DNA of 64,000 bases from Planctomycetaceae bacterium (GTDB taxonomy: Bacteria; Planctomycetota; Planctomycetia; Planctomycetales; Planctomycetaceae). Below the pieces are notes generated by a model that saw only the letters and a list, made by a program, of their open reading frames with translations, had not been told where the DNA came from and searched no databases. Location: positions 62,001 to 126,000 of the forward strand of contig JAKFWC010000023.1 of assembly GCA_021732975.1 (NCBI GenBank), given 5' to 3'. Position 1 is the stretch's first letter. Each line of letters begins with the position of its first letter. Shown here in pieces: positions 55,195-58,100 of this stretch. Both the position numbers and the translations under genes were made by a program.

Positions 55195-58100
55195 ATGCGT
55201 TTCCTCACTTCATTAGTCCTGCTGTCGCTGCTGACTTCATGGTCCTTCGCCGCGGACGGCCCGCCGTTGAAGATTCTGTTCCTCGGCGACAACGGGCATC
55301 ACCGCCCGCAGGAACGGTTTGTGCAACTCGAAGCGGCGCTGCGGCCGCGTGGGGTGGCGCTGAAATACACCGATGACGTGAAGGTCGCACTGACGGCGGA
55401 GACGCTCAATCAGTTCGATGGGCTGATGCTCTTTGCGAACATCGACGTGTTGCGGCCGGAAGGCGAAACGGCGCTGCTCGATTATGTTGCCTCGGGGAAA
55501 GGGTTCATTCCGCTGCACTGTGCGTCGTACTGTTTCCGCAACTCGAAACCGTTTGTGGAGCTCGTCGGGGCACAGTTCAAAGCGCATGGCGGCGAGGTGT
55601 TCCGGGTCGAGAACGCCGCTCTGGATCATCCGATCATGAAGGGCTACGGCGGCTTCACGAGCTGGGATGAAACGTACATCCACACCATGCATAACGAGAA
55701 AGACCGCACCGTTCTCGAATACCGCGTGCAGGGCGGGCAGGAACGGGGCCGCGACAAGGAACCGTGGACGTGGGTCCGCACGCATGGCAAGGGCCGCGTG
55801 TTCTACACGGCGTGGGGACACGATCAGCGCACGTTCGGCAGCCCTGGCTTCCACAATCTGGTGGAACGTGGCACCCGCTGGGCGTGCGGAGAAGACCCAC
55901 AGGTGGTCCCGGCGTTCGTCGATGCGGAAGGCTTCACACCGCAGCCGATGACGGCAATTGCGAAGGATCTGAAGCCGTTCGAGTATGTCGATGTCGGTCC
56001 GAAGATCCCCAACTATCGTCCCGGCAACCAGTGGGGCGTGCAGGGGGCACCGCGGACGGAAATGCAGAAGCCGTTGCCGGCCGCGGAGTCGATGAAGCAC
56101 TACTCCGTGCCGCAGGGATTTCATCTCGAACTGTTCGCCGCAGAGCCCGATTTCGTCGGCAAGCCGATCGCGATGAACTGGGACGAACGCGGCCGGTTGT
56201 GGGTCTGCGAGACCACCGACTATCCGAACGAATTGCAACCGCGCGGACAAGGCCGCGACCGTATCCGCATCTGTGAAGACACCGACGGCGATGGCCGGGC
56301 CGACAAGTTTACCGTCTTCGCCGAAGAACTGAGCATCCCCACCGCAATCGTCTTCCATCGCGGCGGCATCATCGTTCAGGACGGCACCGAAACGCTGTAT
56401 CTGAAGGACACCAACGGCGACGACAAGGCCGATGTCCGCGAAGTCCTCATCAACGGCTGGGCGATGGGCGACACCCACGGCGGCGTCAGCAATTTTCAGT
56501 ACGGCCTCGACAATCACATCTGGGGTATGCAAGGGTACAACAACTCAACCCCGGCGTATGGCGAGGGGTTGCAGAAGAAGTCGGAATCGTTCCGGCAGGG
56601 GTTTTTCCGGTTCAATATGAAAAGAGACCCAGGGTTAAGAAACCCTGGGCTTCCGGTGGTCGAGAATGTGGAGTTCATCCGTTCGTCGAACAACAATACG
56701 TGGGGGTTCGGGATGAGCGAAGACGGGCTCATCTTTGGGTCGACTGCGAATCGCAATCCGAGCATGTTCATGCCGATTGCGAACCGCTACTACGAGCGCG
56801 TCCGTGGCTGGTCCGCCGAACAACTCGGGTCCATCGCCGATACCTATCTCTTCAAAGCGATCACCGACAAAGTCCGGCAGGTCGACCAGTTCGGCGGCTA
56901 CACGGCCGGCGCGGGGCATGCTCTCTACACCGCGCGGACCTATCCACCGCAGTTCTGGAACAAGACCGCGTTCGTTTGTGAGCCAACCGGCCATCTCGTC
57001 GGCACGTTCACTTTGACCCGCGACGGGGCCGGATATACCAGCACGAGCCCGATGAATCTCGTCGCCTCCGATGACGAATGGGCGTCGCCGATCATGGCCG
57101 AGGTTGGTCCCGACGGCAACGTGTGGGTGCTCGATTGGTACAACTATATCATTCAGCATAACCCCGTCCCCGCCGGCTTCAAAAACGGCAAGGGGAACGC
57201 GTACGAATCCGATCTGCGCGACAAAAAGCACGGCCGCATCTACCGGGTGGTGTATGGAGCTGAGAGTCAAGAGTCGAGAGACAGGAGCCAGAAAGAGGGG
57301 CAAGCGCCGCTGTCGATCGATCGTCCCGACGAACTCGTCGCCGCACTGAAACGCCCGAACCTGTTATGGCGGCGACATGCTCAACGTTTGCTCGTGGAAC
57401 GCGGCCAGACCGATGTCGTCCCCGCACTGTTGAAGCTGGTGTCCGATCAATCCGTCGATGCAATCGGCCTGAATGTCGGCGCGATTCACGCCTTGTGGAC
57501 TTTGCACGGCCTCGGGGTCATCGCCGACGAAAGAGTCGATACGATGTCGGCACTGTCGATGGCACTCGCGCATCCTTCCGCGGCCGTCCGTCGCAACGCG
57601 CTGCAGGTATTGCCATCGTCGCCTTGGTCCATGCAGGAAATTGAACGGCTCAGCATGGTGAATGATGGCGATGTCCAGGTTCGCTTGGCTGCCCTGTTAG
57701 TGCTGGCCGACCAGCCATCATCGCCGGTCGCCGGTAAACTTGTCGCCGGGCGTGCGCTGGACATGGCCAACACGATGAATGATCGCTGGTTGCGGGATGC
57801 GGTCACCAGCGCCGCGTCAGTCCATGCGTTGCCGTTTTTGGAATCGCTGACCAAGACTGATCTGACGCCGCAGAAAGGCCCCTACATTCCATGGGAGACC
57901 ATCGCGCCGGTTGTGGAACGCGTGACCGAACACCTCGCCCGCGGACGGATGACATCCGCGGAGATCGAACAGTTCCTCGCTCTGCTCCAGCGCAGCCGGG
58001 ACATGCAGGCCGATGCCATGCTCGCCGGGATTGGACGCGGATGGCCGAAGGATCATGCGATTGAACTGACCCCTGCTGCGGAAGAACTGCTCGTGAAGCA

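Follow-up and report, generated by a model that had tools for sequence, protein, structure and literature searches.

How does a hairpin of a kind normally found between genes come to lie in frame within a protein-coding gene, and what becomes of the protein? The question is raised by a 64,000-nt stretch of a Planctomycetaceae contig (hereafter the window), which belongs to a draft assembly (G000) of 3.76 Mb that is 64.8% complete. In the window a long ORF encoding a ThuA/heme protein contains the 32-nt hairpin AAGAGACCCAGGGTTAAGAAACCCTGGGCTTC, with the stem CCCAGGGTT/AACCCTGGG; shuffled sequence gave 0 matches to this pattern. The initial annotation had reported the hairpin at 56621-56652; the element is real but starts one base later (Table 1). 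The same annotation assigned two intergenic elements, at 47271 and 47678, to the same family and noted that the first 20 nt recur at the very end of the window, and both observations are correct. It further expected this last copy to complete its hairpin past position 64000, which it does, but in a degenerate form with one G-T pair. No Rfam family scores above its gathering score in the window.

Table 1. Repeat copies in the window and the ORF that holds two of the repeats (window coordinates)
Feature	Position	Strand	Remarks
Host ORF, 1487 aa	55195..59658	+	ThuA + DUF7133/PVC-type heme-binding propeller + HEAT + cytochrome c
In-ORF hairpin repeat	56622..56653	+	Terminator-like polarity on minus strand, tail TCTCTTTTC
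In-frame segment KRDPGLRNPGLP	56620..56655	+	Codons covering the hairpin; turn between two propeller strands
Second in-frame repeat of host ORF, GAGTCNA heptamer array	57264..57280	+	Encodes part of AESQESRD
Intergenic family copy	47271..47302	-	3 mismatches to the in-ORF hairpin
Intergenic family copy	47678..47709	-	3 mismatches to the in-ORF hairpin; 8 nt past plus-strand ORF; same place in G001 (L185:2179-2216)
Fourth, decayed copy, first 20 nt	63981..64000	+	Continues past the window as GACCCAGGGTTAAGAAACCTTGGCTTCC

The family to which the hairpin belongs is a large one. Genome-wide, G000 has 68 sites at three or fewer mismatches, the reversed control pattern giving 0, and a covariance model built from 32 copies finds 121 matches at E<=1e-5. 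At least 150 copies are present in the congener G001, and 70 at E<=1e-4 in the congener G002; among genomes further removed, G014, G015 and G023 give 61, 14 and 18 matches, respectively, at E<=0.01, and most others have few or none. In the proposed transcribed orientation the consensus is GAAGCCCAsGGTTTCTkAACCsTGGGTCTCTTC, and the predicted folding energy of the family hairpin is about -18 to -20 kcal/mol. Changes in the 9-bp stem are compensatory: 27 cells are changed on both sides versus 8.9 in shuffles, and the covariation score of the stem is 0.239 versus 0.099 in shuffles. An outer GAAG/CTTC helix was considered as a conserved extension of the stem and rejected, as it is only 86% paired and shows almost no compensation. 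Head-to-head doublets occur in the family. Being a short palindrome that is present in many copies, mainly extragenic and subject to compensatory stem changes, the family is a REP in the broad sense.

Where does this repeat normally sit? Using gene calls from a simple dicodon gene finder trained on the window, we found 114 of the 119 located G000 copies between genes and 5 in ORFs, which bears out the description of the ThuA copy as an intergenic-type element embedded in a reading frame. The 111 intergenic copies for which both neighbours are known fall between 59 convergent, 46 co-directional and 6 divergent gene pairs, and in 86 of these 111 the stop codon of the sense gene lies at most 40 nt upstream. 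Convergent pairs do not discriminate between orientations (33:26, p=0.43), whereas in co-directional pairs the terminator orientation, with the copy after the stop, occurs 32 times and the opposite one 14 times (p=0.011), a moderate bias. In G000 the 8 nt after the stem contain on average 4.2 T, versus 2.8 on the other side. The same preference for gene 3' ends was seen again in 22 of 28 readable loci in G001. In G002 the related hairpin GAAGCCCAGGGATnGCnATCCCTGGGCTTC is often followed by TCTTTT, many of its tails are CTTCTTTT-like, and the copies lie between 10 convergent, 17 co-directional and 1 divergent pairs.

A GC-rich hairpin just after a stop codon is a trait of intrinsic terminators, and the family has it. 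A consensus scan of positions 45000-64000 for terminator-like sites ranks the site at 47681 (+) first and that at 56650 (-), which is the hairpin in the ThuA gene, second. Taking placement, orientation and tails together, we infer that family members are probably terminators or 3'-end hairpins. The repeat-type intrinsic terminators of E. coli, also described as translation-linked REPs (PMC12306157), likewise have a hairpin no more than about 15-40 nt from the stop codon; the present family differs from them in its predicted tail, which is moderately U-rich in G000 and stronger, with frequent TCTTTT-type tails, in G002.

Other known repeats invite comparison. Di Nocera et al. 2013 (PMC3733652) reported REPs lying 20 bp or less from the 3' ends of genes, as well as head-to-head dimers. 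They also found REPs in frame inside many genes, those for tRNA synthetases among them, and two Xanthomonas species that carry different REPs at roughly one site of recB. The GTAG and CGTC superfamilies of that work resemble the present family in being hairpins of 20-40 nt that are high in copy number, mostly intergenic, placed at gene 3' ends, found as doublets and occasionally in frame. Membership in either superfamily was considered and rejected. The consensus (GAAGAGACCCA...TGGGCTTC) has no unpaired GTAG at one end, CGTC is found in 13 of 69 copies, and the stem starts with CCCA; CGTC REPs have an unpaired CGTC/TGTC tag, an A-T stem start and a CCA tail, of which the present family lacks the stem and tail features. 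REPIN/RAYT systems (Bertels and Rainey 2011, PMC3116915) share with it the doublets of inverted short palindromes and the presence of several families per genome, but no dedicated RAYT was found beside the present family in G000, G001 or G002. The palindromic elements of Rickettsia, compared here by description, also lie in frame in unrelated protein genes as tolerated passengers; they differ in that their host phylum is unrelated, while the planctomycete repeat is mainly terminator-like at gene 3' ends and has only a small minority of intragenic copies. Intragenic REPs are already described (Rickettsia, Opitutus, Xanthomonas), and the present family, from a planctomycete, joins the REPs as a new member that lacks their tag. 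Small dispersed repeats of cyanobacteria are a further parallel.

What does the repeat add to the ThuA/heme protein? The host ORF has full-length orthologs in relatives, and the repeat sits between the motifs FFRF and EFIRS. In an AlphaFold2 model of the domain (mean pLDDT 83.6) it occupies the turn between strands 184-190 and 204-211, and pLDDT drops to about 65 there. The modelled fold is similar to the propellers of PQQ-dependent sugar dehydrogenases (TM about 0.5); a search of the PDB by sequence gave no match. The initial annotation supposed that propellers of this type would read nearly continuously through the site, and proposed to look for an insertion of 11-12 residues in an ortholog alignment. 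The supposition proved wrong: even in orthologs without repeats the turn measures 14 to about 24 residues, so that the repeat lengthens the commonest long form by a net of about 6. In a set of 80 named planctomycete loci, most have 14 or 20-24 residues from this site up to NNTWG; 7 loci could not be read by the motif. The annotation had singled out conservation of the segment in orthologs lacking the DNA repeat as the observation that would speak against it; the peptide is in fact missing from all orthologs read, and G002 has a different hairpin.

The turn is occupied in a species-specific manner. In the G001 ortholog, whose protein is 82% identical, it is filled by a GAGTCNA heptamer array, a sequence with 30 occurrences in the G001 genome and 0 for the reversed control. 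In the G002 ortholog it is filled by AAAAGACGCCCAGGGATTGCGATCCCTGGGCGTC, a hairpin of G002's own genome type, and in a planctomycete MAG (L293) by AACTCTCAACCCTCAACTC. G003 and the other relatives examined are without such a hairpin in this turn. It is of note that the heptamer array that forms the second in-frame repeat of the host ORF (Table 1) has a longer counterpart at that position in G001.

Isoleucyl-tRNA synthetase provides a second example. The G000 enzyme (1325 aa; L188:729-4703, equivalent to C21:15728-19702) has two family hairpins in frame, at two loops. The ileS loops of relatives contain other repeat-like DNA: CCCTTAGCCCTCAGCCCTCAG in G001, ATCAACGATCAACC in G003, CGGAGACACGGAGA in G006, CGGAGACGCGGAGA together with a CCAGGGGTTGCAACCCCTGG palindrome in G017, and GAGTCGAGAGTCAAGAG, further palindromes and CCCTCAACCCTCAA in G014; other relatives have short loops. 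The heptamer and CGGAGAC repeats also occur between genes in several of the genomes with ileS loop inserts. Loop 1 of the G014 gene (L274) strings together several distinct palindromes and a heptamer array, amounting to about 48 residues of repeat-like DNA. Separately, the alignments of most relatives break at residues 404-519 (about 115 residues) of the G000 enzyme.

In G000, then, in-frame copies lie in the ThuA gene, twice in ileS and in a further ORF, and G002 has one in its ThuA gene. Are the encoded peptides alike? Those read from internal repeats (KRDPGLRNPGLP, VEETHGSETVGF, AGEAHGFLTLGP and RRPGIAIPGR) are unrelated and come from different frames; since the reading frames differ between genes, no peptide is conserved. 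The copies do have a common polarity. All five intact internal copies in G000 and G002 (G000 ThuA, G000 ileS site 2, G000 C3:186716, G002 ThuA and G002 L241) have their terminator polarity antisense to the gene. Of the copies in sense orientation, the only one deep inside a gene is that in ileS; its stem contains a mismatch, and its predicted energy is -12 versus about -20 kcal/mol. Another sense copy, C1:551739, comes 5 codons before its ORF ends. An antisense rule for intact internal copies is suggestive only, with five copies, a two-sided p of about 0.06 and one weak match, that at C3:186716.

These observations fit a simple scheme. The repeat would ordinarily sit immediately downstream of stop codons and, as a hairpin with a U-rich tail, would most likely terminate or protect transcripts there. 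Copies would spread, or be copied, through the genome, and a few intragenic ones would persist where the protein tolerates extra residues, that is, in surface turns; persistence would also require a frame that is open through the hairpin and a terminator polarity directed against the gene. The ThuA/heme copy lies in an indel-tolerant turn, in an open frame and in antisense polarity, and it is therefore probable that it is a tolerated passenger, a terminator-type repeat of the kind placed after stop codons whose peptide would have no selected function.

How lasting are the hairpins at a given site? At orthologous intergenic sites of G000 and G001 the hairpin is kept at the same place in 12 of 12 cases and in the same orientation in 11, although this retention is no measure of turnover because the G000 stretches in the ortholog pairs were picked for carrying a copy. 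Several of the 12 sites show compensated stem differences and differ in loop type, each following the common form of its own genome. The comparison shows that the position of a hairpin can outlast its sequence, an outcome that either gene conversion or strong selection on the hairpin would produce. At L156 and L230 the orthologous intergenic hairpins have opposite orientations and different stems, as if flipped or replaced.

Such rewriting could account for the ThuA copy in another way, with a single entry in the ancestor of the genus followed in each genome by gene conversion from intergenic copies, and with G001 later exchanging its hairpin for the heptamer array. We consider this history possible but rather doubtful. 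The G002 hairpin at the same spot shares its AAAAGA start and its C[TG]TCCG end with the G000 copy and is of own-genome type, and the intergenic sites just described are consistent with conversion; the codons flanking the hairpin, however, align poorly, and since unrelated repeats have demonstrably landed in this loop, it is also likely that there were two independent insertions. The selection of the intergenic sites for a G000 copy counts against them as evidence here too. It seems unlikely that the copy was recently inserted by active transposition, with a Y1 (RAYT-type) transposase acting in trans. In favour of this, the ThuA copy is the closest match to consensus in its genome (the top scorer with covariance model R1, 61.7 bits), the head-to-head doublets are REPIN-like, and Y1 transposases are present (2 in G000, 9 in G001 and 4 in G002). 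Yet many intergenic copies are common to the species by position, palindromes of other kinds flank the inspected RAYTs, and a model search of 39 transposase loci, including the Y1 matches of these three genomes, found none where the family flanks a Y1/RAYT gene on both sides. The only convincing family copies near these loci were a degenerate one by the RAYT on C11 and the ileS-internal one, about 1.1 kb from the RAYT on C21. RAYT mobilisation was accordingly rejected as a shown mechanism.

Could the internal copy instead do something where it is? It ranks second among the terminator-like sites of the region and faces the minus strand; this, and the antisense polarity of intact internal copies, would suit a hairpin that stops antisense transcripts running through the gene, but the same polarity is expected from plain purging of sense copies, and such a role appears improbable. 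A selected role of the encoded peptide in the protein is more improbable still: the ORF does stay open and is otherwise well conserved, but the peptide is absent or different in orthologs, internal copies in different genes are read in different frames, and the model places the segment in a low-confidence turn. An assembly or frameshift artefact might be suspected in so incomplete a draft genome; given that the hairpin leaves the frame open and that separate assemblies of relatives carry comparable inserts at the same place, we find this scarcely credible.

The point of interest is the recurrent filling of the same loops. A broader proposal, which we put forward tentatively and think less likely to be right than wrong, is that intergenic repeat families and the loops of the propeller protein and of isoleucyl-tRNA synthetase evolve in concert, through repeated colonisation and rewriting by the dominant family of each genome. 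Were it true, parts of essential proteins would be dictated by noncoding repeats. The multi-species series makes it possible to follow which repeats enter which protein loops, allows terminator polarity to be tested as a survival rule, and bears on whether short repeats spread by movement, by gene-conversion copying or in both ways. There is also a warning for annotation: inserts of low conservation in planctomycete proteins, an essential tRNA synthetase included, may turn out to be repeat DNA and not domains.

The Y1 transposase genes inspected carry palindromes other than the present family. The Y1/RAYT-type gene on G000 C21 (L098:1230-1900) is flanked by CCCGAAGCGCGAGCGCCGGG palindromes, and the same palindrome flanks a Y1 gene of G001 (L167). 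The Y1 gene on G000 C11 (L097:1301-1950) has CATAGCCCAGGGTnGCC around it and inverted CATAGCCCAGGGTnGCCGCG palindromes flanking it, with the degenerate family copy just outside. Finally, the palindromes flanking the Y1 gene on G001 C10 (L127:1370-2010) have a GTAG end (GGTAGCCGGGGGTC) and are likely a GTAG REP in a planctomycete.
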